From positions 1 to 26,535 of the IMG/VR virus record IMGVR_UViG_3300042544_000713: DNA of 26,535 nucleotides. The stretch is one strand, 5' to 3'. Every line of letters starts with the position of its first letter. The stretch's first letter is position 1. Both the position numbers and the translations under genes were made by a program. Under the pieces are notes generated by a model, which did not search any database, was not told where the DNA came from, and saw nothing but the letters and a program-made list of their open reading frames with translations. Below are positions 1,260-19,109 of this stretch, piece after piece. Source of the stretch: a virus.

Positions 1260-1697
1260 ATGATATATTGGTTTACAGGTCAGCCTGGAGCAGGTAAGAC
1301 CACATTAGCAAAACACTTAGTGGCATTTTTGATGAACACTAGTAAAGTCCTCCACATCGATGGTGATGATTTGAGAGACATATTCAAGAATAAAGACTAT
1401 TCCGAAGGGGGTAGGAGAAAGAACATCGAGAGAGCACAAGACATTGCTCTTTTCATGAATGAAAAAGGTCATGATGTCGTAGTATCATTAGTTTCACCTT
1501 ACAGAGACCAACGAGAAGAATTTAAAGACAAATCTGAAGCAGTTGAGATTTATGTTCACACTACCGAAGAAAGAGGTCGTGAGAATTTTCACGTTACCGA
1601 TTACGAAAAACCTGAAGAGAATTACGTTGATGTTGATACAACAAACGTATCCGACGTAGAGTCATTTATTGATTTAATTAAAAGAATAGATTTATGA
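1260..1697 (+). CDS. cysC: Adenylylsulfate (APS) kinase, CysC-like
   Basis: A 145-aa P-loop kinase. The Walker A motif GQPGAGKT occupies residues 7-14. It is followed by D-G-D-D-L-R (34-39), G-R-R-K-N-I-E-R-A (51-59) and V-S-P-Y-R-D-Q-R; these are the family signatures for APS binding. CysC phosphorylates adenylylsulfate to PAPS, the universal sulfate donor. At 145 residues it is shorter than the usual ~200, mainly at the C-terminus. Its stop overlaps the next start by 4 bases (ATGA). Two sulfotransferase-like genes downstream (4756 and 8957) would consume PAPS, which supports a sulfation role. A kinase acting on another small phosphoester is the alternative. Confidence 0.85.
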   Translation: MIYWFTGQPGAGKTTLAKHLVAFLMNTSKVLHIDGDDLRDIFKNKDYSEGGRRKNIERAQDIALFMNEKGHDVVVSLVSPYRDQREEFKDKSEAVEIYVHTTEERGRENFHVTDYEKPEENYVDVDTTNVSDVESFIDLIKRIDL

Positions 1698-2074
1698 GTA
1701 AAAAGTATGCGTTGTATGTAGGCCGTTGGCAAAATTGGCACAAAGGTCACGAATGGTTAATTAACCAACAATTAGAAAAAGGTAAAAATGTTTGGGTGGC
1801 AATTAGAGATGTCCCACAAGATGAGAACAATCCTAAAACTGCGATTCAAATCTTACATGAATTATCCAATGAACCCTTTTTCAAAGATAATTTTGATAGA
1901 GTATTAATCTCAATCATTCCTGACATTGAAAGTATTAACTACGGTAGAGGTGTTGGTTATGATGTAATCTATCATGAGCCACCCGCAGATGTTGCGGTTA
2001 TTAGTGGTACCGCAATTCGAACTGGTCACATGAAACCAGATGGAACAGTTACTTACGATGAAAATAAAGGATAA
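1694..2074 (+). CDS. HxGH-motif nucleotidylyltransferase
   Basis: A 126-aa member of the nucleotidylyltransferase (cytidylyltransferase/NMNAT-like) superfamily. The N-terminal strand is followed by G-R-W-Q-N-W-H-K-G-H (10-19), containing the HxGH catalytic motif. The second motif, I-S-G-T-A-I-R (103-109), matches the ISxTxxR nucleotide-binding signature. These enzymes transfer an NMP from NTP to a phosphorylated or acidic substrate. It overlaps the APS kinase gene and abuts the DUF2061 gene, so it may take part in making adenylylsulfate or in another nucleotide activation. It is far shorter than canonical ATP sulfurylase, which shares the HxGH fold. The real substrate cannot be read from the sequence. 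Confidence 0.7.
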   Translation: MSKKYALYVGRWQNWHKGHEWLINQQLEKGKNVWVAIRDVPQDENNPKTAIQILHELSNEPFFKDNFDRVLISIIPDIESINYGRGVGYDVIYHEPPADVAVISGTAIRTGHMKPDGTVTYDENKG

Positions 2075-2298
2075 TGATAGTAGAAAGAAAAAGACACATA
2101 GCTAAAACAATATCGTATCGTATTATATCTACCTTAATTGGATTTGGTATTATGTGGTGGATAAGTGGTGATGTTAAAGTAGGTGCGGCCTTTGGTGTAG
2201 CTGAATTAGTGTATAAACCCATCCAATACTATCTACACGAGAGAGTATGGTATAAGTGGATTAAATTTGGACTAAGAAAAGAAAAGAATATAAAATGA
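2074..2298 (+). CDS. DUF2061 small membrane protein
   Basis: A 74-aa protein with the DUF2061 layout: a basic start (VERKRHIAKTISYR), one hydrophobic segment over about residues 17-31, a second weaker one (37-48), then the conserved YYLHERVW block. DUF2061 proteins are small inner-membrane proteins of unknown function, and members are often found next to sulfate-activation genes. The same arrangement occurs here, with the start overlapping the nucleotidylyltransferase stop by one base (TAATG). A role in sulfate handling at the membrane is inference from this linkage. The family call is firm, the function is not. Confidence 0.8.
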   Translation: MIVERKRHIAKTISYRIISTLIGFGIMWWISGDVKVGAAFGVAELVYKPIQYYLHERVWYKWIKFGLRKEKNIK

Positions 2299-3527
2299 AA
2301 AATGTAGTTATTATTGGTGGCGGTACTGCTGGGTGGTTAACATCACTTTTTATACGGAAAAATTGGGTAGGTGTTAATATTACATTGATTTCTAGTTCTA
2401 ATATTGGAATACTTGGTGCCGGTGAATCAAGTACAACTAATTTCCCTGATCTTTTAATAGGATTAGATATAGATGAAGTTGATTTTATAATAAAAACTAA
2501 AGCAACAATAAAAATCGGTAATGAATTTGTAAATTGGAGAGGGGACGGTAAAAATATGGTACACCCATTTGTCGGTGGACCAAAATCGTTACATGGATTC
2601 CATTTCGATGCCAAATTAGTTGCGGATTATTTACAAAACATAAGTTTAAATAGAGGTGTTAAACATATTGATTCAGAAGTAATTGGATTTAATCAATTAG
2701 ATAATGGAGATGTAAATGAAATATTATTGACCAATGGAACTAAAGTACAATCTGATTTTGTATTTGATTGTAGTGGTTTTGCGAGATTAATTATAGGTAA
2801 ATTGTATAACCAAGAATGGATTTCATATAACAAATACCTTAATATCGATTCGGCGATTGCTTTTTTCCTACCACAAAAAGATAATTTAAATCATGAGTCC
2901 GAAACCACAACCAAGTCTATAGGGATGAAGTGTGGTTGGATGTGGAATGCTCCACTACAACACAGATGGGGTTGTGGGTATGCCTTCAACTCAAACTACA
3001 TTAATGATATTGAAGCAAAAAAAGAGGTTGAGGATTACGTTGGAGAGGAAATTACCATAGTGAAAAAATTTAACTTTAATCCTGGCACATATAAAAATTC
3101 TTGGGTTAATAATTGTGTAGCTATCGGACTCTCCTCGTCATTTTTAGAACCACTTGAGGCGACATCTATGTTAACGTCAATTATGTTATTGAGGAAATTA
3201 AAAAAATTTGATTTTAATCCAATTAATAAAAATGAGTTTAACGACTATTTTAATCACTTAAATGAACAAAATTTATTATTCATTAAGTATCAATATATGT
3301 GTGATAGAGATGATACTAAATTTTGGATAGACCAAAAAATGGTAGAAGTTCCCGATAACTTATTAAAGTTGGTGAATAGAAAGGGTGAATTGATAGTTAA
3401 ATCAAACGATGAAATTAAATCGGCATTAAACATTGTGGACGATAGTCGTAGTTTAGTTTTTGGGTTTTATAGTTATAACACAATCTATAAGAAAAATTCG
3501 AAAAAATTTAGTAATTCATTAATATAA
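2295..3527 (+). CDS. Flavin-dependent (tryptophan-type) halogenase
   Basis: A 410-aa protein of the PF04820 halogenase family. The FAD-binding glycine motif GGGTAGW lies at residues 8-14. K73 in ATIKIG matches the Lys that forms the halogenating chloramine or hydrogen-bonds HOCl. A W-M-W-N-A-P-L motif near residue 215 corresponds to the WxWxIP signature that keeps these enzymes from acting as monooxygenases. A later S-S-F-L-E-P-L-E-A-T block matches the conserved substrate/halide-side region. It is shorter than PrnA/RebH (~500+), so the substrate pocket is likely different and free tryptophan need not be the substrate. Related genes occur in marine T4-like phages. It overlaps the DUF2061 gene by 4 bases. 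The C-terminus is KKFSNSLI, part of a motif shared with its neighbours. Confidence 0.85.
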   Translation: MKNVVIIGGGTAGWLTSLFIRKNWVGVNITLISSSNIGILGAGESSTTNFPDLLIGLDIDEVDFIIKTKATIKIGNEFVNWRGDGKNMVHPFVGGPKSLHGFHFDAKLVADYLQNISLNRGVKHIDSEVIGFNQLDNGDVNEILLTNGTKVQSDFVFDCSGFARLIIGKLYNQEWISYNKYLNIDSAIAFFLPQKDNLNHESETTTKSIGMKCGWMWNAPLQHRWGCGYAFNSNYINDIEAKKEVEDYVGEEITIVKKFNFNPGTYKNSWVNNCVAIGLSSSFLEPLEATSMLTSIMLLRKLKKFDFNPINKNEFNDYFNHLNEQNLLFIKYQYMCDRDDTKFWIDQKMVEVPDNLLKLVNRKGELIVKSNDEIKSALNIVDDSRSLVFGFYSYNTIYKKNSKKFSNSLI

Positions 3528-3533
3528 AGAGAT

Positions 3534-4187
3534 ATGGAAAAGTTATATTTTGATGAGACCACATATATTTGGAAAACAAAACTTAATAAGTTAAATGAAA
3601 AGTCATCATTTTTAAAAGAGGCTTATTTGGTCATAGAATCTCAGCCAGATGTAAAAACGGACGGGTTCGGTTATAAGAAAGAATGGAATAATAATTTAAA
3701 TTTTATTGGTGAAATTGAGGTTGAAACAAATTTAGATTACGTGGTTCAAAAAGGTATAAATCTTTGTAAAGAACTCTATGGGGAAAAAAATATACCTTAT
3801 AATAAAATAAACACCGACTCTTGGGTTAATGTTGTAAGATCACAAAACCCGGTACAACTACAATTTCGACATGAGGAATTGAAAGGTGTTGATAAATTCC
3901 ATGTTCACACCGATATTAATAGAGATAGTAAAACTTTTATACCACATTACACTTATGTATATTACATCCAAATGCCCGATGTAATGAATGGAGAAGATGG
4001 TGTATTATACTTTAGAGGTAAAGACAATCAAGAGTTTTGGATTAGACCTGAAGAAGACGATTTTATTATAATGGAAGCCGATATGCCACATTCACCAAAC
4101 AACGCTCCTGATTCGACAAATGATAGAATAGTTTTGGCGGGAAACGTTGGATTTGAATTTATTAAAAAAGAAAAATCGTTAATATAA
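3534..4187 (+). CDS. 2OG-Fe(II) oxygenase-like protein (jelly-roll)
   Basis: A 217-aa protein with the facial-triad pattern of 2-oxoglutarate/Fe(II) oxygenases: H125-x-D127, distal H186, and R198 as the likely 2OG carboxylate binder, separated by beta-strands as in a double-stranded beta-helix fold. Members hydroxylate peptides, small molecules or nucleobases. It starts 6 bases after the halogenase stop, with a weak AGAG in front, and overlaps the next gene by one base. It differs in sequence from the other two oxygenases (4187 and 8391), so it is not a recent duplicate. The C-terminus reads KKEKSLI. Substrate unknown. Confidence 0.7.
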   Translation: MEKLYFDETTYIWKTKLNKLNEKSSFLKEAYLVIESQPDVKTDGFGYKKEWNNNLNFIGEIEVETNLDYVVQKGINLCKELYGEKNIPYNKINTDSWVNVVRSQNPVQLQFRHEELKGVDKFHVHTDINRDSKTFIPHYTYVYYIQMPDVMNGEDGVLYFRGKDNQEFWIRPEEDDFIIMEADMPHSPNNAPDSTNDRIVLAGNVGFEFIKKEKSLI

Positions 4188-4756
4188 TGTTTGTAAAATA
4201 TATTGAGAATTTTTTAACAAAAGAAGAATGTGATCAGATTATCCTTTTAGGGGAATCCGTGGGACTAAGTCAAATGAAATCATCATTAATTGTGAACGGT
4301 AAACTTATTGAAGAGAATGTAAGTTATGATGGTAACAAAAGAATGGGTTGTTATTTTTACGATGAATTATTAGAAAATGACGTATTAAAAAATTTGACAA
4401 ATAAGATTGTCGAATTGTCGAATAACTTAAACCCATTCAATGGTATAAATTATATTAAAGTACCGAAATATTCATTTAACAGATATGGTGAAGGTGATTT
4501 TTTAGATTGGCATCCTGATAATCATGAAATATTAAACGGAGCAACAATTACATTTATCATTCAACTTAATGATGATTATGAAGGTGGAGATGTTAAATAT
4601 ATCACAGATGGGACCAATCAAACCACACCTAAAAAAACAGGAAGTGTATTAATATTTGATTCAAATATAGTTCATTCAGTTGACAAGGTAATAAAAGGAA
4701 TCAGATATTCATTGAATGTATGGCCAAGTAAAACAATTAAACAATCGATATTATAA
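4187..4756 (+). CDS. 2OG-Fe(II) oxygenase, prolyl-4-hydroxylase-like
   Basis: A 189-aa oxygenase with W-H-P-D (H109, D111), distal H163 and R173 in G-I-R-Y-S-L-N-V-W, the classic HxD...H...R layout of P4H-type enzymes. The E-G-G-D segment after the first strand pair is also typical. Family members hydroxylate prolyl, lysyl or other residues, or small molecules. The adjacent fibre has no proline in its Gly-X-Y runs, so collagen-type prolyl hydroxylation of those runs is ruled out. It overlaps both neighbours by one base (TAATG), implying coupled translation. The C-terminus is TIKQSIL. Confidence 0.85.
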   Translation: MFVKYIENFLTKEECDQIILLGESVGLSQMKSSLIVNGKLIEENVSYDGNKRMGCYFYDELLENDVLKNLTNKIVELSNNLNPFNGINYIKVPKYSFNRYGEGDFLDWHPDNHEILNGATITFIIQLNDDYEGGDVKYITDGTNQTTPKKTGSVLIFDSNIVHSVDKVIKGIRYSLNVWPSKTIKQSIL

Positions 4757-5547
4757 TGTTAGTAGATAATAAATTCATTTATTTAAGTTTACCTAGATGT
4801 GCATCAACTGCGTTTAATTATTCATGTATTCTTAATGACGTAAGCTTACAAACATTCAACGGAGAATGGGAAAAATCTAATTTAGATATTGATTTTAATT
4901 CAATTGATAAGTCTAAAATAATGGATTATATCTACCATGGACACGAATCGATAACAGACTTACAAAACAAATTTGGTAATGAGTATCCGGTTATTGCGGT
5001 TAAGAGACAAAGACATGAAAGATTTTTTTCTCTATACAAACACGTTTTGTTTGATTTACAACGTACAGGATTTCATAGAATATATGATGTTTTTAGTAAC
5101 ATGACATTAGACGAGCTATTTTTCTTTACCAAAGACGACCTATCAAGTAAGAAAAAACGTTGGGAGGTAATATGTGATTTATTGATAAATTTGAAAATAT
5201 TGGATGAAAGAATCGATATTTCTGTTACATCAAAATTTAAAAAATCTGAAGAGGAGTTTTTTAAGAAAAGTACAAAGGCTTATGCGGTTAATATGATTGA
5301 TATATTATTAACCCCACTATCGTATTGGACAAACAATAACCAAAATATCATTTGGTTTGATTTTAACGAAATGGATAAATTTGAGGGTTGGGTATCTAAA
5401 ACATTGGAAAAACCCTTTAAACTCTATTCCGTAAATTCAAGTAAACATATGGAGTGTAAAATCGTATTAAATGATGAGTTTAAAGAAAAATATGACAGTA
5501 TTTATGATTATTACGATTTTCCTAAATTAAAAAAAAGTTTAATATGA
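4756..5547 (+). CDS. Sulfotransferase-family protein
   Basis: A 263-aa protein. The N-terminal strand leads into S-L-P-R-C-A-S-T-A (11-19), matching the 5'-phosphosulfate-binding loop of PAPS-dependent sulfotransferases. A later V-K-R-Q-R-H-E-R-F-F-S-L-Y block has the Arg...Ser pattern of the 3'-phosphate-binding site. This type usually sulfates carbohydrates, more rarely peptides. The upstream CysC-like gene could supply PAPS. It is soluble in appearance, with no signal peptide or membrane anchor. It overlaps the preceding stop by one base and the next start by 4 (ATGA). The C-terminus is KLKKSLI. Confidence 0.75.
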   Translation: MLVDNKFIYLSLPRCASTAFNYSCILNDVSLQTFNGEWEKSNLDIDFNSIDKSKIMDYIYHGHESITDLQNKFGNEYPVIAVKRQRHERFFSLYKHVLFDLQRTGFHRIYDVFSNMTLDELFFFTKDDLSSKKKRWEVICDLLINLKILDERIDISVTSKFKKSEEEFFKKSTKAYAVNMIDILLTPLSYWTNNNQNIIWFDFNEMDKFEGWVSKTLEKPFKLYSVNSSKHMECKIVLNDEFKEKYDSIYDYYDFPKLKKSLI

Positions 5548-5831
5548 TAGATTATAAGGAGATATTTGAAGCATGGAAAACATCATATAAACCAACAGAA
5601 AAACAGGAAGAACAGGCAAGAGAAAGATTGGATATATGTTTAGGGTGTGACCATAGAAAAGAAGTACTAAAAGGTGTTAAATGGTCAGCATATTGTAACG
5701 ATTGTGGGTGCCCAATAAACAAAAAAGTATTTTCGAAAACTTTTAACGCGTGTACCCAAAAAAAATGGGAGGAAGTTGATTCAAAATACATGGACGTTGT
5801 CCCAACAAAATATAAGAATTCATTGATATAA
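5544..5831 (+). CDS. Small zinc-ribbon protein (DUF6171-like)
   Basis: A 95-aa protein with C32-x2-C35, C51-x2-C54-x-C56 and C70, the pattern of a small zinc ribbon. The C-x2-C-G-C-P-I core followed by a Lys-rich strand and a final Cys before K-K-W resembles DUF6171. The function of such proteins is unknown; they could be adaptors or metallochaperones. It is the last gene of the first tailoring-enzyme run and is followed by a 76-base promoter-bearing gap, so its end is not coupled to another start. Even so it ends in KYKNSLI, like its neighbours, which helps separate the C-terminal motif from translational coupling effects. Confidence 0.6.
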   Translation: MIDYKEIFEAWKTSYKPTEKQEEQARERLDICLGCDHRKEVLKGVKWSAYCNDCGCPINKKVFSKTFNACTQKKWEEVDSKYMDVVPTKYKNSLI

Positions 5832-5855
5832 CATATACATATATATAACTAATAC

Positions 5856-5884
5856 TTGACAAATATTATCGTTATCGGTATATT
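5856..5884 (+). promoter_or_regulatory. Sigma70-like promoter before the ATP-grasp/Hint gene
   Basis: TTGACA (5856-5861), exactly 17 bases, then TATATT (5879-5884). This is a full -35 consensus and five of six -10 bases, with the same spacing and -10 box as at 1224-1252. The expected start near 5891 gives an A-rich leader of about 17 bases before ATG 5908, with no clear Shine-Dalgarno. It lies in the longest gap of the left arm's run of tailoring genes. Confidence 0.6.
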
Positions 5885-5907
5885 TATATAGTAAGATAAA
5901 AAAAATT

Positions 5908-7398
5908 ATGAAAGCAACAATAATAGGTAGTGACTTACTTCAATCGAATGGTTCGGTTAAATTCTTAGAAATAAACACCAACACCACAATATATAATGAG
6001 GGGGCGGATTTATTGGATTATGATTCATTGTTCACGATGTTAAATGACAATGAAATTAATGAATTCCATTTCATTTGGACGGAGTTGGACTCATACAAAC
6101 CATTAACTGAACAATTCAGATTTAAGAAAATTTTAGAAGAAAAATGTGAAGAAAATAACATTTCTTTCTCAGAATACATGGTACCTGTAAATTCGGTAAC
6201 AGTACCATATATTGAGGACGCTAGTAACAAATTCATATTGAGACAATCATTTGACACTACCGCATTGGTGGACGAAACATATTGTGCGGATAAATTTGAA
6301 TTTTTCTCTTTAATGAGTGGAACAACATACGTACCTAAAACATATTTTACTTCAGATTTATTAACATTAGACACGTTAGATGAAGTTGACTTTAATGTTA
6401 CTGACGTTCCAAATTTATTAGTTAAGCCGAGAAATCCTGGTTACAATTCACTTACTTATCCAGCGTTATATCGAGCATCAAGTTCAGCTGAATTAGCAAC
6501 ATTGAAAAGTGAATTAACAACAAGTGATTTAGTTCAGGAATTCATTTTCTCAGAAGATAACCTTGTTAATGGTAGATATTCAGTTATTAGAAGTATTGAC
6601 ATTATATATGGTTCTAATTTGGATATTATTCATATGGGTGGTTACACACAATCCACAATAATTCCAATATCATTCACTCAAGATGAATTTGTAAGTGGGA
6701 CCAACAAGTTAAATCAAAAAAGTAGATACAAATATATAACTAAGGAATTAGGTAATTCATCTCCTATTAACTACCATACTGATGATGATAGCGTTATTTT
6801 AAAATTAGACGGTACTTTAACTGATGTTGATACAATCGCGTTAGGTGATTATGTTCGTTCAATTGATTATACCGATTTTAACGATAATAAAGCATCCAAA
6901 TTCGATGAAAAAATCTTCACATTTGGTTGGGACAGTAATTTAGTTAACGATAACGAAACATTAATTCAAACTGGAACTAGTTTACAACATATGGTATCTG
7001 CTGCGGTTGATACGATTTATATTCGTATAACATTGTCCGATGGTAGAACGTGGACAGACTCACCGTCCGCAACATATTATATCGAAGAATCGGGATCAAC
7101 ATCCACAAGATTCGAAAAGGTTAATAAAATGTACGTTGGTGATAAGTTAGTAATTACCGATGCTTCAACCAATCAACTTACTACAGTTGAAATAACTGGT
7201 TTGGAGATGGAACACGCACAAAAAACCATTTATAGCTTAGATTTTGAACCATCCGATTTATTTTTAGTGGATATTGGTGATGGGGATTTCAGTGTGATGC
7301 ACAACTCATGTTGGTGTCCTTGGAACTATTGTGGTCACTGGTGTAATAGTAACTATTGTCCATCATGTAATGGAGGTGGTTTTGAAAGTAAACTTTAA
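5908..7398 (+). CDS. ATP-grasp-like protein with Hint-like domain and Cys-rich tail
   Basis: A 496-aa protein of three parts. Residues 1 to ~260 look ATP-grasp-like: F-I-L-R-Q-S-F-D-T-T-A, L-L-V-K-P-R and L-V-Q-E-F-I occur in the expected order. Unusually, a V-K-F-L-E-I-N-T-N strand of the kind found late in ATP-grasp folds is at residues 17-25. Residues ~290-466 resemble a Hint/intein-like domain: V-I-L-K-L-D-G then A-L-G-D-Y-V-R-S-I-D at the start, V-G-D-K-L, K-T-I-Y-S-L, and V-M-H-N-S (463-467) at the end, matching the C-terminal His-Asn-(Ser/Cys/Thr) junction. The usual first Cys is absent; the aligned position is about H290. The last 30 residues hold six Cys (468, 470, 475, 479, 484, 487). 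Cleavage after N466 could release this tail (inference). Confidence 0.5.
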   Translation: MKATIIGSDLLQSNGSVKFLEINTNTTIYNEGADLLDYDSLFTMLNDNEINEFHFIWTELDSYKPLTEQFRFKKILEEKCEENNISFSEYMVPVNSVTVPYIEDASNKFILRQSFDTTALVDETYCADKFEFFSLMSGTTYVPKTYFTSDLLTLDTLDEVDFNVTDVPNLLVKPRNPGYNSLTYPALYRASSSAELATLKSELTTSDLVQEFIFSEDNLVNGRYSVIRSIDIIYGSNLDIIHMGGYTQSTIIPISFTQDEFVSGTNKLNQKSRYKYITKELGNSSPINYHTDDDSVILKLDGTLTDVDTIALGDYVRSIDYTDFNDNKASKFDEKIFTFGWDSNLVNDNETLIQTGTSLQHMVSAAVDTIYIRITLSDGRTWTDSPSATYYIEESGSTSTRFEKVNKMYVGDKLVITDASTNQLTTVEITGLEMEHAQKTIYSLDFEPSDLFLVDIGDGDFSVMHNSCWCPWNYCGHWCNSNYCPSCNGGGFESKL

Positions 7399-7428
7399 TA
7401 ACAGAAATAATTTAAAACATATTTTAAA

Positions 7429-7569
7429 ATGGCAGTAAAAGAAAGAGTAGAAAGACCGGCACAAACAATTAAACCAATTGTCGCTCCGTTATCAAACGCG
7501 GTTAAGGAAAAAATAGCAACAGCATTTCAAGCAGTTGTTAATGAGGTTAAAACCAAACACTTGGGGTAA
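7429..7569 (+). CDS. 46-aa small protein, unknown
   Basis: ATG at 7429 to TAA at 7567-7569 encodes 46 residues: a basic start (AVKERVERP), a Pro/Val centre, then an amphipathic helix-like stretch (NAVKEKIATAFQAV) and a Lys-rich end. It fills the gap between the ATP-grasp/Hint gene, 30 bases upstream, and the SGNH gene starting 3 bases downstream. Codon choice matches its neighbours, and the spacing is operon-like. I do not recognise a family. A small protein beside an ATP-grasp-like gene could be a modified-peptide precursor, but there is no recognisable core motif, so this is only a possibility. Confidence 0.55.
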   Translation: MAVKERVERPAQTIKPIVAPLSNAVKEKIATAFQAVVNEVKTKHLG

Positions 7570-7572
7570 TTT

Positions 7573-8394
7573 ATGAAACTATTCACATATGGTGATAGTT
7601 GGACCGAAGGTGCTGGTGTCGACGTTGTTAAAGAAAATTTAATCGAAACAAGAGAAGAAAGAAAAAAATTTAGAAACGATAGGTCTTGGCCGACAAAACT
7701 TTCTAAATTAATGAATCTCGAAGTTCAAAACCAAGCAATTTCAGGATCAAATAATAATTTCACGTTTAACGAGGTTATTGAAAATATAAAATCTAATATA
7801 ATAAATCCTGGAGATTTAATAATAATAATGTGGACATCATCCTTGAGGGATGATGTTCCTTTTTTCCCCAAAAACGAATGGCACACATGGGGGTCCAATT
7901 TCATTAAAGAAAATTATAAACAAAAATGGTTTGTCTCTAAAGATTTAACCAAAAATTCAACATATAATGATTTCTTAATTAATTATAAGGAATTTTTTAT
8001 TGGTGAATTATTTACTCAAGATTATTATAATATAGTAAATCAAAATTACATTTTATTTATTCAAAAATTATGTGAACACTATCAAATAAATTATATCTTT
8101 TGTGATGCGTTTGATAAAATGATTGATGAGATTAAATCAGAAAATGATAAGACTAATTTAATAAATAAAAATCCTTATTGGGGATTCGGTGAGAAAACAT
8201 TTAAAGATTTTTTAATTTCTAAAGATAATAAAATGGTATGGGAGTTACCCCAATTAGATATTTCTAAAACTCCAGGTATGCATCCATCCGAAATTGGGTA
8301 TGAATTTATTGCTGAAGAAATTTATAGATTTATAAATTCTAATAAAAATAATATTATTAGGTACGATAATAACAAAAAAATCAAAATTTTGTGA
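7573..8394 (+). CDS. SGNH/GDSL-hydrolase-like protein
   Basis: A 273-aa protein with the SGNH blocks: block I Y-G-D-S-W-T-E-G with S9 as candidate nucleophile, block II I-S-G-S-N-N (56-61), a strand ending M-W-T-S-S-L-R-D where block III normally sits, and a last block M-H-P-S-E-I-G-Y with H237. The canonical block III GxND is not seen as such, so activity is likely but not certain. Members deacetylate or de-esterify sugars and lipids. It sits 3 bases after the 46-aa ORF and overlaps the next gene by 4 bases (GTGA). The C-terminus NKKIKIL is a looser version of the shared motif. Confidence 0.7.
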   Translation: MKLFTYGDSWTEGAGVDVVKENLIETREERKKFRNDRSWPTKLSKLMNLEVQNQAISGSNNNFTFNEVIENIKSNIINPGDLIIIMWTSSLRDDVPFFPKNEWHTWGSNFIKENYKQKWFVSKDLTKNSTYNDFLINYKEFFIGELFTQDYYNIVNQNYILFIQKLCEHYQINYIFCDAFDKMIDEIKSENDKTNLINKNPYWGFGEKTFKDFLISKDNKMVWELPQLDISKTPGMHPSEIGYEFIAEEIYRFINSNKNNIIRYDNNKKIKIL

Positions 8395-8960
8395 TTCAAT
8401 ATAGTGTAAATGGTAATTTTTTTAACAAAGACGAGATTAATGATATTTTAACCTTTTGTAAAAAAAATGGAGAATCTTTTTCTTACAACCCAAATGAAAC
8501 TTGGGACTGTAAACGAATTTACGATGAAGAATTCAAACAAAAAATATTATCTAAATTTATTGAAAACATTAAGTCTAATGATTTTGAGTTATGGTTTGAT
8601 TTCGAAACCTTCGATTTAAAAAATTTCAATATAAGTTTAACGTCCTATTATGATGGTAGATACCTTAATCTACATAAAGATAAGACAAGTGAATTGACAA
8701 CCGTAATTGTACTATCTGATGATTTTGAAGGAGGTCAATTTGTATTAACTGAAGATGAGAACCCACCATATAATTTTGAAACGTTAGATGGTTTGATAAT
8801 ATCCGATTTAAAGTTAGGGGATAGCATTTCATTTAACGGTTCTAAAACGTTTCATGGAGTTTTACCTGTGACCGAAGGTACAAGGTACGCATTGAACATA
8901 TGGATGACCGAAACTGATTTCGATTACCCAAAACTAAAAAACAATAAAACATTGTTATGA
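8391..8960 (+). CDS. 2OG-Fe(II) oxygenase-like protein
   Basis: A 189-aa oxygenase with H95-K-D97, distal H155 and R165 in G-T-R-Y-A-L-N-I-W, with D-F-E-G-G-Q after the first core strands. The end resembles the P4H-like protein at 4187 (GIRYSLNVW there), so the two may be distant paralogues. The start is GTG at 8391, overlapping the previous stop by 4 bases (GTGA); no ATG lies nearby in frame. The next gene overlaps its stop by 4 bases (ATGA). Substrate unknown; Ser/Thr-rich protein, glycan or small molecule all remain open. The C-terminus is KNNKTLL. Confidence 0.8.
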   Translation: MIQYSVNGNFFNKDEINDILTFCKKNGESFSYNPNETWDCKRIYDEEFKQKILSKFIENIKSNDFELWFDFETFDLKNFNISLTSYYDGRYLNLHKDKTSELTTVIVLSDDFEGGQFVLTEDENPPYNFETLDGLIISDLKLGDSISFNGSKTFHGVLPVTEGTRYALNIWMTETDFDYPKLKNNKTLL

Positions 8961-9610
8961 GAATTGCTATCGTTTGTAATGGTCGAAGTGGGTCAACATC
9001 ATTAACATATTTCATTAATTGTTGTTTGTTGTTTGAGAACAAAAAACATTCTTTATTTTTTGAACCTTTTAATTATAGAAATTTAGATAAGGAGAAAAAA
9101 ATTAAAAGAATTGATGAGATAGTAAATAAACAAAACGTACTAGTTAAGACTTTCATTGATAGAGACAATTTTCCGCACGAGTCATTTAAAAATATTGAGG
9201 AGTATTGGGATTGGTTTTATACCTTTTTTGATAAAGTAATCGTATTAGAAAGAGAAAACAAAAGACTCCAATCCGAGAGTTTACTGTATCATCTAAAAAT
9301 ATCTGAAAATCAAACAGTAACACCTCATTGGCATAAACAAAAATACTATGACTTATCTATTGTTGATGAAAACGAAATTATTGGGTTAACTAAACATTTA
9401 GAATCTGAATCTAATTTTTTAAAATCAATATCAGATATGGGTTATCCACATTATACCTATGAGAAGATATTTGTGGATAAATGCTCGGAGACTATAACCG
9501 ACTTATTAAATTATTTAGGTTTATCTTTCAATCAAAATTGTGTAGATAAATGGATTAACTCACCATATAAAAAGGTGAGGTTAGATGAAAAAACAAATAA
9601 ATTATTATAA
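8957..9610 (+). CDS. Sulfotransferase-family protein (second copy type)
   Basis: A 217-aa protein beginning with a strand and the phosphate loop N-G-R-S-G-S-T-S (8-15), as in carbohydrate sulfotransferases. V-I-V-L-E-R-E-N-K-R-L-Q-S follows near residues 93-105, with the Arg...Ser 3'-phosphate-site pattern. It differs from the sulfotransferase at 4756 in length and loop sequence, suggesting a different acceptor. A P-loop nucleotide-binding role outside sulfation is a minor alternative. It overlaps its neighbours by 4 and 1 bases. The C-terminus is KTNKLL. Confidence 0.7.
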   Translation: MRIAIVCNGRSGSTSLTYFINCCLLFENKKHSLFFEPFNYRNLDKEKKIKRIDEIVNKQNVLVKTFIDRDNFPHESFKNIEEYWDWFYTFFDKVIVLERENKRLQSESLLYHLKISENQTVTPHWHKQKYYDLSIVDENEIIGLTKHLESESNFLKSISDMGYPHYTYEKIFVDKCSETITDLLNYLGLSFNQNCVDKWINSPYKKVRLDEKTNKLL

Positions 9611-10677
9611 TGGTCAACCTTAAAGAATATATATGTTCAGTACCATTTAATGGTTTAGAAATACACGATAATAGTGCGTTCATGTGTTGTGCCAGTTGGT
9701 TAACAAAACCACTACCAAAAAATGGGGCAATTAAAGATTTATGGAAATCCGAAGAGGCAAAGGAAATTAGAAAATCTGTAACAGACGGTTCATATAGGTT
9801 TTGTGATAAGAAACTTTGCCCATACCTAAGTGAATTACAAAAGTTCAATAGAACTCAAGTAGGTCCGGTAAAACATATTAATCAAGTATCGGATGAAATT
9901 AAAAACTATATTGAAAACGGCGAGGATAGTTTTACAAGTGGACCGACGATACTTCAAATGTCATTCGATAGGACATGTAATTATAAGTGTCCGTCGTGTA
10001 GGGTAGATATGATTGTGGCTAGTAGTGATAAAATTAAAACAATTAACTTAACGATTGACGAGATTGAGGAGGCTTATTCCGATTCAATCGAAACGATTTA
10101 TTGTTCGGGTACCGCGGATCCATTTGCGTCGGTATCATATAGAAACTTTCTTAGAAACTTCAACCCCAAAAAATACCCTAATTTAAAATCTATACACCTA
10201 CACACCAATGCTAGTTTATGGAATAAAGAAATGTGGGATAGTATGCCCAACATACATAAATATGTTCGTAGTTGTGAGATTAGTATTGATGCGGGAACAC
10301 AAAACACTTACGAAAACGTAACGAGATTAGGAGGTAATTGGGATAATTTATTAAACAATCTTAGATTTATCTCAACAATCAAATCAATTAGAAATGTAAA
10401 ATGCTCATTTGTAGTTCAACAATCAAACTATAATGAGATGAGTACATTTTTTGATTTAATACGTTCAATTTTCGGTAAAAAAACTAAAGTCTTTTACGGT
10501 AGATTGACAAATTGGGGAACATTCTCCGATGAAATGTTTAAGTTTTTAGATGTTGCCGATGAAACCCATCCCGAACATTCATTTTTCTTAGAGGAATTTA
10601 ACAAAGTGGCAATAAGTCCTTTTGTCTTTCATAATTTACATGATTTTATTGAAAAAAAGGAAACTAAGTTGATTTAA
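9610..10677 (+). CDS. Radical SAM protein with N-terminal SPASM-like cysteines
   Basis: A 355-aa protein. The radical SAM cluster motif C123-x3-C127-x2-C130 lies in R-T-C-N-Y-K-C-P-S-C and is followed by TIM-barrel-like strands (S-I-H-L-H-T-N-A, S-C-E-I-S-I-D-A). Ahead of it, residues 1-75 hold C9, C26, C27, C65 and C70 plus a D-L-W-K-S-E-E-A-K-E-I-R segment, which looks like the auxiliary-cluster (SPASM/twitch) region that usually lies C-terminal. Such enzymes modify peptides, sugars or proteins by radical chemistry. The position beside the ATP-grasp-like, halogenase and oxygenase genes suggests a tailoring role. It is the last gene of the coupled run. The C-terminus is KKETKLI. Confidence 0.8.
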   Translation: MVNLKEYICSVPFNGLEIHDNSAFMCCASWLTKPLPKNGAIKDLWKSEEAKEIRKSVTDGSYRFCDKKLCPYLSELQKFNRTQVGPVKHINQVSDEIKNYIENGEDSFTSGPTILQMSFDRTCNYKCPSCRVDMIVASSDKIKTINLTIDEIEEAYSDSIETIYCSGTADPFASVSYRNFLRNFNPKKYPNLKSIHLHTNASLWNKEMWDSMPNIHKYVRSCEISIDAGTQNTYENVTRLGGNWDNLLNNLRFISTIKSIRNVKCSFVVQQSNYNEMSTFFDLIRSIFGKKTKVFYGRLTNWGTFSDEMFKFLDVADETHPEHSFFLEEFNKVAISPFVFHNLHDFIEKKETKLI

Positions 10678-10704: not shown

Positions 10705-13431
10705 ATGAAGATACTTGCTCACGCTCCGTTTATTGGTACAACAGGTTACGCAAACCACGCACGTTCATTCTTTTGTGCACTCAACAAGTACCATACAGTA
10801 AAAGTTAGAAACCTTACCATTGGAAACAGTTGGAAGGGTATGAATAATCGTCCACATGATGGTGAATCTTATTTCACAGAAGAGATTGGGGACATGTTGA
10901 TATTACAGACATTACATAGGGCCGATGGTAATGGAAGGGTAGATGAACCTATGTACGATTACAAAGGTGATTTTGTACCCGACGTTCACATTGTTTTAAT
11001 GGAAACGAATAACCATTACTTCTATGAAGATTATGATGGGTATAAAATCGCATACAACGTATGGGAATCAACAAGATACCCCGATGAATTCTTCAATAGA
11101 TTATTCTATTTTGATGAAGTATGGGTGCCGACACAATGGCAATTTGATTGTTTAGTTGAACAAGGTTATCCGAAAGAAAAGATTTTCATCGTACCTGAGG
11201 GTGTTGATGTTGATACATTTAAACCAATTAAAAAATTCCCTAAAAGAGAAAAGGTACGTTTCGTACATTTCGGTAGATGGGATTATAGAAAAGGGACGAC
11301 AGAAATATTACAAGCCTTTGCTGAAGAATTCAAAGATGTGGATGATGTGGAACTTTTGGCATCTGTTGAAAACCCATATCCATATGATGGATTAAAGACA
11401 ACTGATGAAAGAGTTAAACATTATGGTATTGACACTAAGAATATTAAATTTCTAAATTTTCCCTCAAGAGAAGAATATGTAAATTATTTACAAACTGCAC
11501 ACGTATTTGTTTCGTGTGCTCGAAGTGAAGGTTGGAACTTACCTTTAATTGAAGCAATGGCTTGTGGAACACCGTCAATATATTCAAATTGGGGTGGACA
11601 ATTACAATTTGCTGAAGGTAAAGGTGTGCCAGTGGCAATCAAAGGATTAAGACCTGCTAACATCGAACATAAAGAGTGGCCCGGTGAATATTGTGAACCA
11701 GATTGGGATGACTTAAAGCGTCAGATGAGACAGGCGTACGATTATAATACCGCAATGTGGGTGACAGCTGTTGGTGACGCAAAAGATATTCACAAAAAAT
11801 TTAATTGGGACACGGTTGCGAAGGGTGCGTGTGAGATATTGGAAAGAAATAAAAAACCATTCGCTTTTGTAACAACAGGTAACTTAGGTTATATGCCTGT
11901 AATTGAGAAATTAGTCCAATCATTATTGGAATTCTCTGAACAAAAGATTTTGGTTTATGGTATCGATTGTGAGGTTCCATTTGATTATCCAAATGTTATT
12001 AAGAGAACAATAAGTGTTCCTAAAATTTCAGAACATGATAAGTGGTATTGGAAACAATGGTCATGTATTGAGGCACTAAAAGAAAACTTCGAAAACTTTG
12101 TATGGGTCGATGGTGATGTGGTTGTTAATTACAACATTGATAACATCAGACAATACTTTAATCAAATAGAAAATTATCCGATTGCCGACATTCACGTACA
12201 AGAGGAATTCTTCGGTATGTACGATAACGGTAATAAATCTCAATTGTTCAATCAAGAATTAGCAAATGAATGGGGTATAGGTAAACGTAACCCATACATG
12301 CACATTTGCTTATATGTTTATAATAAAAATTGTAGTGAATGGTTTGACGAATTACTTACTCACTACGTTTCATTAATGAAGACCAAACCTGAAGATTATA
12401 AGAGACTATATCTTTGGAATGATGAAGGTATCGATAATGCGATGAGATGGAAACATGGTCACATGAAACATTTACCATTATCAAACTTCGATACATCATC
12501 TTATGACGGAGACGCAGGATTCATTGATAAATCATTACATCAATTTTATAAGTTTTGGAATGAAGATGGTCCACAAAATTTTGATAGAATATTTGGTTAT
12601 CAATTTATACCAAAAGACAAATCAAAAATCATTTACTTCCACGGTAATAAGAACGCCGAGATTTCGGATAAAATGATTGAATTCATCAAAATGCAAAGAG
12701 ACAAATCATTTTATAAGTCACATTGTTTTTACACGGATGTTTATAAAGTTGAGAACTTCTCAAAGTATTTCCAATACGAAGGTTCAACTATGGATGTGGC
12801 GGCCAAGTTCGGTTGGTCAGTCGCAATTTTCCATGAGATTTTTAACTTATTAGATTACTATAAGAATAGAGAACGAAGTATTAATGAAGGGGATACTGTT
12901 GTTGACTTAGGTGGTAACATCGGAGTATTCAATAGATGGGCCTATAGTCAAGGAGCAAGTAGAGTAATATCATTCGAACCCGATAAGAGATACTTTAAAT
13001 TACTTTCTTTAAACGCGGACCCACGTTCAGTATTATTCAACGCTGCGGCTAGTGATTCAATTGGTGAATTAAGTTTATTCGAAAGTACTCACTTGGGAGG
13101 ATCTAATTTATTTGGTACACAAGAAGGTGCTAAAGAATATAAGGTTAGAACTTACACGTTAGATTATCTTTTTGAGACTGAATTAATTGATAAGATTGAT
13201 TTCTTAAAAGTTGATATTGAAGGTGCTGAACATCACGCATTAGCGGGTATTAGTAATGAAAACTTAATGAAAGTGAAAACAATATCAATGGAGTATCATC
13301 ACAGTCACTTTGATTATAATGAAGAATTAAGACAGAGTCTAATCGATAGGATGGTTGGTTTAGGATTTAACTCATATCTTTTATTCATGGGTACAAATAA
13401 TGCTTTACAAATGTTATACTTTACACGATGA
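10705..13431 (+). CDS. Trifunctional fusion: GT4 glycosyltransferase, GT-A-like domain, FkbM methyltransferase
   Basis: A 908-aa protein with three recognisable parts. Residues 1 to ~395 form a GT4 (GT-B) glycosyltransferase: F-G-R-W-D-Y-R-K-G near 188 and S-E-G-W-N-L-P-L-I-E-A-M-A-C-G near 272, the E-x7-E retaining-GT signature. Residues ~395-690 hold a second domain with F-V-W-V-D-G-D-V-V-V near 465, a DxD-like motif on a GT-A-type strand. Residues ~715-908 are an FkbM-family methyltransferase: V-V-D-L-G-G-N-I-G near 731, I-S-F-E-P-D, and L-K-V-D-I-E-G-A-E. One chain could therefore add one or two sugars and O-methylate them. No frameshift is seen across the joins. It overlaps the next gene by 4 bases. 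Confidence 0.85.
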   Translation: MKILAHAPFIGTTGYANHARSFFCALNKYHTVKVRNLTIGNSWKGMNNRPHDGESYFTEEIGDMLILQTLHRADGNGRVDEPMYDYKGDFVPDVHIVLMETNNHYFYEDYDGYKIAYNVWESTRYPDEFFNRLFYFDEVWVPTQWQFDCLVEQGYPKEKIFIVPEGVDVDTFKPIKKFPKREKVRFVHFGRWDYRKGTTEILQAFAEEFKDVDDVELLASVENPYPYDGLKTTDERVKHYGIDTKNIKFLNFPSREEYVNYLQTAHVFVSCARSEGWNLPLIEAMACGTPSIYSNWGGQLQFAEGKGVPVAIKGLRPANIEHKEWPGEYCEPDWDDLKRQMRQAYDYNTAMWVTAVGDAKDIHKKFNWDTVAKGACEILERNKKPFAFVTTGNLGYMPVIEKLVQSLLEFSEQKILVYGIDCEVPFDYPNVIKRTISVPKISEHDKWYWKQWSCIEALKENFENFVWVDGDVVVNYNIDNIRQYFNQIENYPIADIHVQEEFFGMYDNGNKSQLFNQELANEWGIGKRNPYMHICLYVYNKNCSEWFDELLTHYVSLMKTKPEDYKRLYLWNDEGIDNAMRWKHGHMKHLPLSNFDTSSYDGDAGFIDKSLHQFYKFWNEDGPQNFDRIFGYQFIPKDKSKIIYFHGNKNAEISDKMIEFIKMQRDKSFYKSHCFYTDVYKVENFSKYFQYEGSTMDVAAKFGWSVAIFHEIFNLLDYYKNRERSINEGDTVVDLGGNIGVFNRWAYSQGASRVISFEPDKRYFKLLSLNADPRSVLFNAAASDSIGELSLFESTHLGGSNLFGTQEGAKEYKVRTYTLDYLFETELIDKIDFLKVDIEGAEHHALAGISNENLMKVKTISMEYHHSHFDYNEELRQSLIDRMVGLGFNSYLLFMGTNNALQMLYFTR

Positions 13432-14077: not shown

Positions 14078-14737
14078 ATGAATACATTAGATAAAATAGC
14101 AAAATCGTTTGGGACGGATAAATGTTCTGATAACCACAACTATTGCAACAAATACGAGAAGTATCTCCCTTTCAAAAGATATGATGAATTGAATATATTG
14201 GAGATAGGGGTATTAGACGGTAAGTCATTATTAACATGGAAAGATTATTATTATCGATCAAACATTTTAGGTATCGACATTAATCCTGATTGTAAAAAAT
14301 ACGAAGAAGAAAGAATTTCAGTTGAGATTGGTTCACAAGCAGACGGAGCATTTCTATCAAGAATTTGGCAACAGTATGGTCCATTCGATATGGTATTAGA
14401 TGATGGATCTCATATGAGTTCTCATATGATATATTCATTCGAACATCTTTGGGGTAGTGTGAAGTCGGGCGGTGTTTATGTTATTGAAGATGTTGGTTGT
14501 TCTTATTGGGGGGATTATGAAGGTGGTTATTTGAAACCATCCTCATGTATGGAATATTTTAAATCATTGTCTGATGATATTAACTTCAGAGGACTAATGA
14601 ACTTTAATGTACCTAACGTACATGCTAGAAGAGAAGATTGGTTAATTGACCTATCAAAAGACACACAACCTGGATGTAAAACTGATATTGAATCTATAAA
14701 CTTCCTTAATGGAATTATTATTATAAGTAAAAGATAA
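14078..14737 (+). CDS. Class I SAM methyltransferase, MycE/CmcI-like
   Basis: A 219-aa protein with SAM motif I L-E-I-G-V-L-D-G-K-S (41-50), an acidic G-I-D-I after the second strand, D108-D-G-S-H112 and V-I-E-D (E137-D138) after the fourth strand. The D-D-G-S-H plus I-E-D pair is typical of metal-dependent sugar O-methyltransferases such as MycE and of CmcI-like proteins, where these acidic residues bind Mg. The F-G-T-D-K stretch near the start is also usual in this group. It sits between glycosyltransferase genes, so methylation of a sugar is likely. It overlaps the next gene by one base. Confidence 0.75.
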   Translation: MNTLDKIAKSFGTDKCSDNHNYCNKYEKYLPFKRYDELNILEIGVLDGKSLLTWKDYYYRSNILGIDINPDCKKYEEERISVEIGSQADGAFLSRIWQQYGPFDMVLDDGSHMSSHMIYSFEHLWGSVKSGGVYVIEDVGCSYWGDYEGGYLKPSSCMEYFKSLSDDINFRGLMNFNVPNVHARREDWLIDLSKDTQPGCKTDIESINFLNGIIIISKR

Positions 14738-16922: not shown

Positions 16923-19109
16923 ATGAAAATATTTGACGCACTCGTAACAGGTTCACTCGGAGTATCAGGTTCAGCCCACGTTCGTGGTGACTTAACTGTT
17001 CTAGGAACGATAAATGCAACTATTAGTGGTACAACATCGAACGCAATTTCTGCGTCGTATTCACTTTCTTCTTCATATGCTGAAGATGCGGATACACTTG
17101 ATGGGTATAACTCTTCAGACTTCGCAATTTTATCACAATCTAACACATTTACAACCGGACAAACCGTAAGCGGTTCTGTTTTGATTCACGGTGACCTTTA
17201 TATAAACGGTACACAATATACTGCCGCAACTTCAGGAACAAGTGGAACATCAGGTTCTTCTGGTTCTAATGGTTCTTCAGGAACAAGTGGAACATCAGGT
17301 TCTTCTGGTTCTGACGGGTCATCGGGAACTTCAGGTTCAAGTGGTTCATCAGGAACTTCAGGTAGTGCTGGAACTTCAGGTTCAAGCGGTTCTTCAGGAA
17401 CGGCTGGTTCATCTGGTAGTTCAGGTTCTTCTGGTTCTAATGGTTCTTCAGGAACTGCCGGTACTTCAGGAACATCAGGTTCTGCCGGTACTTCAGGTAC
17501 TTCAGGTAGTTCAGGTTCATCAGGAAGTTCGGGAACATCAGGAAGTGATGGTTCTTCTGGTACTTCAGGAACGGCAGGTACTTCAGGTTCTTCAGGAAGT
17601 TCGGGATCAAGTGGAACAAGTGGTTCATCTGGTAGTTCAGGTTCTTCAGGGACTGCTGGTACCTCAGGTTCTAACGGATCTTCGGGAACTGCTGGTTCAT
17701 CAGGTAGTTCAGGTTCATCAGGGACAAGTGGGTCTAGTGGAACGTCAGGTTCGTCTGGTTCCTCAGGTTCAAGTGGTACATCAGGAACTTCTGGCTCTTC
17801 AGGAACAAGTGGTTCATCAGGTAGCTCAGGTTCTTCAGGAACTGCTGGTACATCAGGAACTTCAGGAAGTAGTGGTAGTTCAGGTTCATCAGGAACGGTA
17901 ACTTTAGTAGGTACAACAGATAATGGTATTATAACTCTAAATGGTACTTCACCAAATGCTACTGTTGAATCAAATTTAACTTTTGATGGATCAACACTTA
18001 CGGTTACGGGTGATATATTAATAACCAATAACTTATTGGTTCAAGGTACAACAACAAGTTTACAAGTTAACAACTTATTAATTGAAGATAAATTAATAAC
18101 ATTAGCAAGTGGTTCAGCAACAGCGGCTGCGGCTAATGGTGCTGGTATTGAGGTTGTGGGACCAGGTACGGCGGCAACTATCACATATGCTAATACTGAT
18201 GATAGTTGGAATTCAAACAAACAATTTAATGTTCCATCTTTAAAAATTAACGGAACACTATATTCAGCAGCAACTTCAGGTTCAAGCGGAACAAGTGGTT
18301 CATCAGGTAGTTCGGGAACATCAGGTTCTTCTGGTTCTTCAGGTTCTAGTGGAACTTCAGGTTCTTCAGGAACAAGTGGTTCATCTGGTAGTTCAGGTTC
18401 TAGTGGAACATCAGGTTCATCAGGTAGTTCAGGAACAAGTGGGTCTAGTGGTTCATCTGGTTCATCAGGAACAAGTGGTAGCTCGGGATCTAACGGTTCT
18501 TCAGGTACTTCAGGAAGCTCAGGTTCATCAGGAAGTTCGGGAACATCAGGTTCATCAGGTTCATCAGGAAGTTCGGGAACATCAGGTTCATCAGGTTCTT
18601 CAGGAAGTAGTGGTAGTTCAGGTTCATCAGGTACAACAACTATAACAAACGCATCCACTGACCGTATCATGACAAGTGAAGGTGGAGTTACTTTAAATGG
18701 TGAAGCGAATTTAACATTTAACGGAACAACTTTATATGTAAATGGAGCGTTGGGTGTAGGTACATCAACACCTACTACAACAGGTTTAATAAGAGCAACA
18801 AATGACGTTATTGCTTATTTCGGTTCAGATAGTAGATTAAAAGAGAACGTAACACCAATATCTAATCCACTTGAGAAGATTCAACAAATCGGTGGTTATG
18901 AATATGATTGGATTCCAATGGAAGGTATTCACGAAAATGAAGGACATGACATCGGGGTAATCGCTCAGGAAATTGAATCAATATTACCTGAAATCGTAAC
19001 AACAAGAGAGAATGGTTATAAAGCCGTTAAATACGATAGAATAGTTGCTTTATTAATTGAATGTGTAAAGGAACAACAAAAACAAATTGATGAATTAAAA
19101 AACAAATAA
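16923..19109 (+). CDS. Collagen-like tail fibre with S74 autochaperone
   Basis: A 728-aa structural protein. Residues 1-104 are a beta-rich head (V-R-G-D-L-T-V-L-G-T-I, L-D-G-Y-N-S-S-D-F). Residues 105-324 are 73 uninterrupted Gly-X-Y triplets plus a final Gly. Residues 325-452 are a beta-rich linker. Residues 453-570 are another 39 triplets plus Gly. The tail ends with an S74 intramolecular chaperone from about residue 635: S635-D-S-R-L-K640 matches the conserved self-cleavage Ser and Lys, followed by D-I-G-V-I-A-Q-E-I and a terminal coiled coil. Cleavage before S635 would remove about 94 residues after trimer folding (family knowledge). X is only Ser or Thr; Y is Ser, Ala, Asn or Asp; there is no Pro. 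The glycosyltransferases upstream could decorate it. Confidence 0.9.
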   Translation: MKIFDALVTGSLGVSGSAHVRGDLTVLGTINATISGTTSNAISASYSLSSSYAEDADTLDGYNSSDFAILSQSNTFTTGQTVSGSVLIHGDLYINGTQYTAATSGTSGTSGSSGSNGSSGTSGTSGSSGSDGSSGTSGSSGSSGTSGSAGTSGSSGSSGTAGSSGSSGSSGSNGSSGTAGTSGTSGSAGTSGTSGSSGSSGSSGTSGSDGSSGTSGTAGTSGSSGSSGSSGTSGSSGSSGSSGTAGTSGSNGSSGTAGSSGSSGSSGTSGSSGTSGSSGSSGSSGTSGTSGSSGTSGSSGSSGSSGTAGTSGTSGSSGSSGSSGTVTLVGTTDNGIITLNGTSPNATVESNLTFDGSTLTVTGDILITNNLLVQGTTTSLQVNNLLIEDKLITLASGSATAAAANGAGIEVVGPGTAATITYANTDDSWNSNKQFNVPSLKINGTLYSAATSGSSGTSGSSGSSGTSGSSGSSGSSGTSGSSGTSGSSGSSGSSGTSGSSGSSGTSGSSGSSGSSGTSGSSGSNGSSGTSGSSGSSGSSGTSGSSGSSGSSGTSGSSGSSGSSGSSGSSGTTTITNASTDRIMTSEGGVTLNGEANLTFNGTTLYVNGALGVGTSTPTTTGLIRATNDVIAYFGSDSRLKENVTPISNPLEKIQQIGGYEYDWIPMEGIHENEGHDIGVIAQEIESILPEIVTTRENGYKAVKYDRIVALLIECVKEQQKQIDELKNK
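17235..17894 (+). repeat. First collagen-like Gly-X-Y repeat block (73 triplets)
   Basis: A 9-base periodic run encoding 73 Gly-(Ser/Thr)-(Ser/Ala/Asn/Asp) triplets plus Gly. Gly codons (GGT, GGA, GGG) and Ser codons (TCA, TCT, TCG, AGT, AGC) are mixed, so the DNA copies are imperfect while the protein pattern is exact. Thr occurs only in the X position. Ala, Asn and Asp occur only in Y. Confidence 0.9.
18279..18632 (+). repeat. Second collagen-like Gly-X-Y repeat block (39 triplets)
   Basis: A second run of 39 triplets plus Gly, nearly all GSS and GTS with one GSN and no Ala or Asp. It is more uniform than the first block, which suggests more recent expansion or a different constraint. It is flanked by sequences that resemble the flanks of the first block. 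Confidence 0.9.

Follow-up and report, generated by a model that had tools for sequence, protein, structure and literature searches.

A run of unrelated enzymes that end alike

The window analyzed here is the complete IMG/VR virus record IMGVR_UViG_3300042544_000713 (26,535 bases). Its plus strand carries a cassette in which proteins of different folds share a short C-terminal ending, hereafter the tag, together with two untagged proteins, GRASP (496 residues) and sm46 (46 residues). The cassette opens with a flavin-dependent (tryptophan-type) halogenase (HAL, 2295..3527; PF04820, E-value 1.9e-88, 297.8 bits against a curated cut-off of 21), which ends in KFSNSLI (3504-3524). There follow two 2-oxoglutarate (2OG)-Fe(II) oxygenases, one of type b (2OGb, 3534..4187; PF13640 at 0.002, under its cut-off) ending in KKEKSLI (4164-4184) and one of type a (2OGa, 4187..4756; PF13640 at 5.2e-13 and subfamily alignment) ending in IKQSIL (4733-4753), then sulfotransferase-like protein A (4756..5547) with the ending KLKKSLI (5524-5544), and a 95-residue zinc-ribbon-like protein (5544..5831), with six Cys conserved in an alignment of 30 relatives, whose ending KYKNSLI (5808-5828) lies 76 nt from the next gene. 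That gene encodes GRASP (5908..7398), and sm46 (7429..7569) comes directly after it. The tagged genes resume with an SGNH/GDSL-type protein (7573..8394; PF00657 at 5.1e-06; NKKIKIL, 8371-8391), a second 2OGa copy (8391..8960; PF13640 at 7.7e-09; KNNKTLL, 8937-8957, placed by subfamily alignment), a putative sulfotransferase-like protein B (8957..9610; KTNKLL, 9587-9607) and a radical S-adenosylmethionine (SAM) protein (9610..10677; NF033640 at 1.8e-16, PF04055 at 9.7e-05; KKETKLI, 10654-10674). Halogenases, 2OG oxygenases, radical SAM proteins and sulfotransferase-like proteins are typical tailoring enzymes.

The ending follows the consensus K-x-x-K-[ST]-[LI]-[IL]-COOH and is a real feature of these unrelated enzymes: the nine endings listed in the original prediction are all present in the window as written and are retained across relatives. 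Viral contigs supplied relatives of four cassette proteins, the zinc ribbon, the halogenase, the radical SAM protein and GRASP, and additional halogenase homologues were gathered by alignment from other viral contigs. Note that the cassette genomes are metagenomic contigs throughout, with mechanically called open reading frames (ORFs), and that related loci and ORFs are non-independent samples, for which Fisher p-values serve as a guide only. In a profile of 548 endings from 12 families, Lys occupies position -7 in 50% and position -4 in 54% of the endings, Ser or Thr position -3 in 62%, Leu or Ile position -2 in 97%, and Ile or Leu position -1 in 99%. Enrichment was scored with the pattern [STK][LI][LI] at the exact C-terminus. 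This pattern terminates 35% of the 732 distinct ORFs of the first 60 loci versus 0.63% of internal windows, a comparison of the kind that the original prediction had proposed as a check. Across 121 related viral loci, 453 of 1339 ORFs (34%) end in this way, versus 0 of 723 in phage loci that contain a halogenase homologue but no cassette (Fisher p = 7e-100).

Clustering of the ORFs ties the ending to particular families. At least 12 of them are tagged in nearly every member, including the 2OG oxygenases, the two sulfotransferase-like families, the halogenase, the radical SAM protein, the zinc ribbon and the in-cassette SGNH protein; four further families are tagged beyond the eight named in the window run. 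Counted with a loose, hydrophobic tip (stricter pattern counts were also made), the tag is found in all 44 halogenases of the cassette type, in 64/64 relatives of sulfotransferase-like protein A, 63/63 of protein B and 22/22 of the radical SAM protein, in 53 of 55 zinc ribbons (the other two end in VI), in 48 of 51 2OGb relatives (the other three end in SVI, SVL and SLV), in 137 of 142 2OGa relatives (four of the remaining five end in VI) and in 55 of 60 SGNH proteins, where the exceptions lie outside the cassette, are truncated or end in VI or MI. Altogether, most exceptions show VI, SVL or SLV ends, or are truncated proteins or SGNH genes located outside the cassette. Other families of the same loci, namely DUF2061, a nucleotidyltransferase-like protein, APS kinase and phage core genes, are untagged and have unrelated ends. 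In the window itself, the genes of the 308-residue protein, the 908-residue protein, the 214-residue SGNH protein and the 219-residue methyltransferase are untagged. The 707-residue protein encoded at 14737, which the original prediction had listed alongside the nine, ends in LIL, but its homologues end in ENLF and EKFF, and it was dropped from the set.

Selection acts on the protein

For the zinc ribbon, sulfotransferase-like protein A and 2OGb, 26-82% of the pairs compared use different codons at positions -1 to -3, and 100% of these differences remain inside {I,L,V,M,F} or {S,T}. At positions -5 and -6, the residue class is preserved in just 8-17% of the differences (zinc ribbon and sulfotransferase-like protein A). 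The codons of the tip thus vary while the class of the residue is fixed, which shows that the tag is under purifying selection at the protein level, as the original prediction had proposed from codon usage in a single genome. A conserved DNA junction was considered and ruled out, all ten Ser/Thr codons being used at position -3 at roughly local frequencies. The claim that the ending is not a re-initiation signal is likewise borne out: it is retained in 92 of 100 genes of tagged families whose next gene lies more than 30 nt away or on the opposite strand. The internal-position, codon and spacing controls together rule out base composition and translational coupling. The two findings that the original prediction had named as fatal, a background rate of the same kind in other genes and an origin in base composition, did not materialize; the background in other genes is about 0-2%.

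The tag is carried on tails that vary in length. The relatives of the zinc ribbon have a variable linker, about ten residues long, followed by an invariant Lys and the tip, and 2OGa subfamilies sharing only 21-33% identity align at the same tip behind linkers of differing length. The AlphaFold2 (AF2) model of sulfotransferase-like protein A (pLDDT 89) places the tag past the folded domain, on a tail modelled with low confidence (51-75 for the last ten residues). Tip residues are concordant within genomes, a weak signal (p about 0.005) from which common descent is not fully removed.

The tag depends on the cassette

Of the halogenase homologues on loci that carry GRASP, 17 of 18 are tagged and the remaining one ends in PPLI; on loci without GRASP, 57 are untagged and 7 are tagged. 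The latter seven come from short contigs and are of the cassette type by sequence identity, so the GRASP gene may simply have been cut off. Bacterial halogenase homologues, whose comparison with the phage copies the original prediction had suggested, gave two strict matches out of 92, with SDPASLL-type ends that do not have the Lys pattern. The same enzyme families occur in T4-like cyanophages and pelagiphages, but without the tag: in the halogenase/oxygenase stretches of cultured representatives, 1 of 121 ORFs is tagged and these enzymes are not, and no relative of GRASP was found in cultured phages. By portal protein, the closest isolates are a Microcystis phage (52%) and a Flavobacterium phage (49%); the parts of them that were examined contain 2 tagged ORFs among 192. 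The cassette seems to be restricted to uncultured T4-like phages of aquatic origin.

Within large genomes, the tag is concentrated in the cassette. Three T4-like records of 238-289 kb, recognized by a T4 portal, contain 45 ending matches, 25 of which fall inside one cassette of about 8-10 kb, and the other 20 amount to about 2% of the remaining ~1000 ORFs. Several of these 20 are radical SAM proteins, SGNH proteins or a 119-residue protein that recurs across genomes, so that the tag goes with the type of enzyme and not only with its location. The 119-residue protein, with its tag-like end, is found at 18608-18967 in locus L129, 6507-6866 in L151 and 360-719 in L276. A minimal cassette, reduced to a 2OG oxygenase, the zinc ribbon, GRASP and sm46, is still tagged. 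In a divergent clade (L189, L248, L249, L250 and L260), the tip now reads -LF in a number of unrelated families that share a genome, a hint of co-evolution with a shared reader. The halogenase, the zinc ribbon and one 2OG family of the L189 clade have shifted; the other families retain LI or LL, which leaves a concerted drift of the tag suggestive only.

The centre of the cassette

Two untagged proteins, GRASP and sm46, are constant in the cassette. The AF2 model of GRASP is of moderate confidence (pLDDT 65.5) and comprises an ATP-grasp region (residues ~1-276), an intein-like Hint region (~289-466) ending in His-Asn, and a tail. Residues 1-276 align with glutathione synthetase, glutathionylspermidine (GSP) synthetase and YgiC (VIA-align Z 7-8, with 8.0-8.1 for glutathione synthetase and YgiC). 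Residues 289-466 are predicted to have the Hint fold, with Foldseek matches at 6e-7 to Hedgehog and intein domains and a VIA-align Z of 11.4 to an intein. Nine residues are invariant in 29 relatives: D9, E21, N23, K129, K173, E211, R228, H465 and N466. We take D9, E21 and N23 to be the counterparts of the magnesium ligands of GSP synthetase. The region aligned to intein residue 1 reads YHTDDDS or similar and contains no Cys or Ser at that position in any aligned relative; splicing by the main Hint domain is therefore not expected.

The tail following His-Asn, SCWCPWNYCGHWCNSNYCPSCNGGGFESKL, counts 30 residues in the window (7306..7395) and 25-33 residues in relatives, is rich in Cys, Trp and Tyr, and contains six Cys in most relatives along with many aromatic residues. 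We propose it as the substrate or product peptide. Two divergent relatives, in L249 (1488-3365) and L250 (10001-11953), have a complete second Hint domain after the tail (PT-HINT, 3.8e-14; Intein_splicing); this domain has Cys at its N-terminus and HN at its C-terminus, which places the peptide between two self-processing domains. In L260 (1670-3415), as well as in L261 and L263, the tail is followed by a domain resembling the S74 endosialidase chaperone (E-value 0.0039, under the Pfam cut-off). Both domains added after the tail belong to self-cleaving kinds, which suggests, from the domain order in these divergent relatives, that the peptide may be a discrete released product. On its own, GRASP is a candidate self-releasing precursor. 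A possible link between the presence of the halogenase and a CPW motif in the tail was examined and is not claimed, with p = 0.0004 after light dereplication and 0.13 and 0.56 after stricter dereplication.

No relative of GRASP was found among 50,697 INPHARED phage records, and pattern scanning of some 85,000 species genomes of bacteria and archaea (GTDB) gave none either; GRASP has no match in Pfam, PHROGs or NCBIfam, and a profile search of solved structures returned a single insignificant match. The second constant protein, sm46 or a short analogue of it, is encoded downstream of the GRASP gene in all 85 loci checked. It seemed to be missing from 13 cassettes, a reading that was rejected when a similar short ORF was found after the centre gene in each of them. 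The protein has a conserved C-terminal helix ending in KHL[SG] and belongs to no known family.

Assignments and neighbouring genes

Sulfotransferase-like protein A is predicted to have a sulfotransferase fold: Foldseek alone gave no significant match to its model, and sulfotransferases make up nearly all of the VIA-align rows, the best with Z 8.6 and an rmsd of 4.3 over 181 residues. The assignment of protein B relies on a P-loop-like RSGSTS start and on the original prediction; protein B has no Pfam or PHROG match. Upstream of the cassette, as in many other loci, lies an untagged APS kinase (CysC, 1260..1697, plus strand; PF01583 at 5e-19), a probable supplier of 3'-phosphoadenosine 5'-phosphosulfate (PAPS). 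It is followed on the same strand by a small nucleotidyltransferase-like protein (1694..2074), possibly ATP-sulfurylase-like, in which HxGH and ISGTxIR motifs were recognized by eye; this protein has no Pfam match and none of its 34 relatives is tagged. Together, these two genes (1260-2074) are a possible phage source of PAPS for the sulfotransferase-like proteins. On the other side of the cassette, the 908-residue product of 10705-13431 joins a glycosyltransferase to an FkbM-type methyltransferase in one chain; it is conserved beside some cassettes and is never tagged. Further downstream, 16923-19109 encodes a collagen-like fibre protein with GSSGTSG repeats and a C-terminal S74 chaperone domain.

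Discussion

We propose, with a probability of roughly 0.6, that the tag docks the tailoring enzymes onto a centre formed by GRASP and sm46 in a phage pathway resembling those of ribosomally synthesized and post-translationally modified peptides (RiPPs). The ending would be a short linear docking motif read at the free C-terminus, and the reader would be GRASP, sm46 or both together. The precursor would bring the tagged enzymes together, and they would modify its C-terminal peptide by halogenation, hydroxylation, sulfation and radical chemistry; the Hint domain might then free the peptide through asparagine cyclization at His-Asn. Docking within this cassette is favoured because tags are found only in genomes that contain the GRASP/sm46 pair, and the Cys-rich tail is the obvious substrate candidate because it is the constant part that does not look like an enzyme. 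Several observations weigh against this scheme. The canonical N-terminal nucleophile is absent from the Hint domain of GRASP, and the first residue after His-Asn varies (S, T, G, A, P, N, V and others), which together make cleavage of the tail no more than plausible. In addition, the link between the halogenase and the tail sequence vanishes after dereplication, and the drift to -LF touches some but not all families, so the specificity of the reader may be loose. The most complete version of the proposal, a phage assembly line in which a dozen enzymes are recruited by their tags to a self-cleaving ATP-grasp/Hint precursor and to sm46 and make a heavily modified six-cysteine peptide, is a tentative one, whose odds we place slightly short of even.

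The original prediction left open whether the tag served docking on a scaffold or sorting onto the virion. Docking within the cassette is the part that is best supported. That the tag delivers the enzymes to the virion or into a compartment built by the phage, for action there on tail or surface molecules, is in our view unlikely. It is true that the cassette adjoins glycosyltransferases and a collagen-like S74 fibre, that one GRASP lineage has an S74-like end, and that C-terminal targeting peptides load cargo into the phage-derived shells of encapsulins (PMC7925596). However, no capsid- or shell-like gene is seen among the cassette families, the adjoining glycosyltransferases and fibres are themselves untagged, and the tags track GRASP rather than the T4-like virion, since T4-like isolates do not have them. 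Somewhat less probable again is a role as a degron, by which a hydrophobic C-terminus would shorten the life of the enzymes by exposing them to a protease of the host or of the phage. Non-polar C-termini are indeed recognized by ClpXP, Tsp and other proteases, but the tag is limited to one pathway-like set, has conserved residues at three positions (Lys at -7 and at -4, Ser/Thr at -3), and contrasts with the low background of the other phage genes. We consider it quite improbable that the tag is a ligation substrate, the ATP-grasp domain activating its carboxylate and joining it to an amine, for instance on the core peptide, to tether the enzymes covalently. The match of GRASP to YgiC and GSP synthetase, its invariant D9, E21, N23, K129, K173 and E211 and the exact C-terminal position of the tag would fit such a reaction, but no evidence points to this carboxylate as a substrate, and the tagged proteins are enzymes, not typical substrates. 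Finally, chance, base composition or a re-initiation signal, which could draw on the many ATGA or TAATG gene overlaps and on the common TTA and ATA codons of this genome, are effectively excluded by the absence of tags from cassette-less loci, the free variation of the tip codons, the retention of the ending at uncoupled genes and the unrelated ends of the untagged families.

C-terminal address tags are known from eukaryotic organelles and from bacterial nanocompartments, but we know of no C-terminal tag common to a whole set of unrelated phage enzymes. Like PTS1, the SKL-like tag of eukaryotic peroxisomes, and like class I PDZ ligands ([ST]-x-hydrophobic), which its [ST]-x-hydrophobic end resembles, the phage tag is a short linear motif with a free carboxylate. 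It differs from the PDZ ligands in its fixed Leu or Ile at -2, and among those window proteins that were searched, Pfam detects no PDZ domain. Encapsulin family 1 targeting peptides are likewise short C-terminal peptides on flexible tails, common to unrelated cargo enzymes; they are Gly-rich, with charged or Gly ends, e.g. NTGGDLGIRK and PLTVGSLRRGG (PMC7925596), whereas the phage tag must be the exact end of the protein. The profile of 548 endings does not contain the Gly-containing LGI/GSL-type motif of the published peptides (PMC7925596). Encapsulin cargo is encoded beside a gene for an HK97-type shell. No shell or capsid Pfam match was found among the window proteins searched, the phage's own capsid lying elsewhere.

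RiPP clusters, including those of graspetides, offer a further likeness, with a run of tailoring enzymes, an ATP-grasp protein and a short Cys-rich candidate core peptide. Here, the halogenase, the 2OG oxygenases, the radical SAM protein and the sulfotransferase-like proteins stand beside a candidate precursor. The differences are that the candidate core is fused behind the ATP-grasp and Hint domains, that the enzymes share a C-terminal tag and that the system is known from phage contigs only. More specifically, graspetide macrocyclases are MvdD/RimK-type ATP-grasp proteins acting on a separate precursor; the fold matches of the ATP-grasp domain of GRASP point to the glutathione/GSP-synthetase type. 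No PqqD-like Pfam match, the mark of a leader-binding RiPP recognition element (RRE), was found among the window proteins, RREs being divergent. Bacterial intein-like (BIL) and other Hint domains also end in His-Asn before a short C-terminal peptide, but in the main Hint domain of GRASP the expected first position is occupied by neither Cys nor Ser, and the domain is fused to an ATP-grasp domain. In the open-licence papers searched, no description of this system was found. Short C-terminal tags being already known, what is new is the combination of this fused centre with one tag common to an entire group of unrelated enzymes. If the tag does dock enzymes, membership of the pathway would be readable from sequence alone, the cassette would point to a modified peptide made by a phage, and the ending would provide a portable recruitment tag of seven residues.

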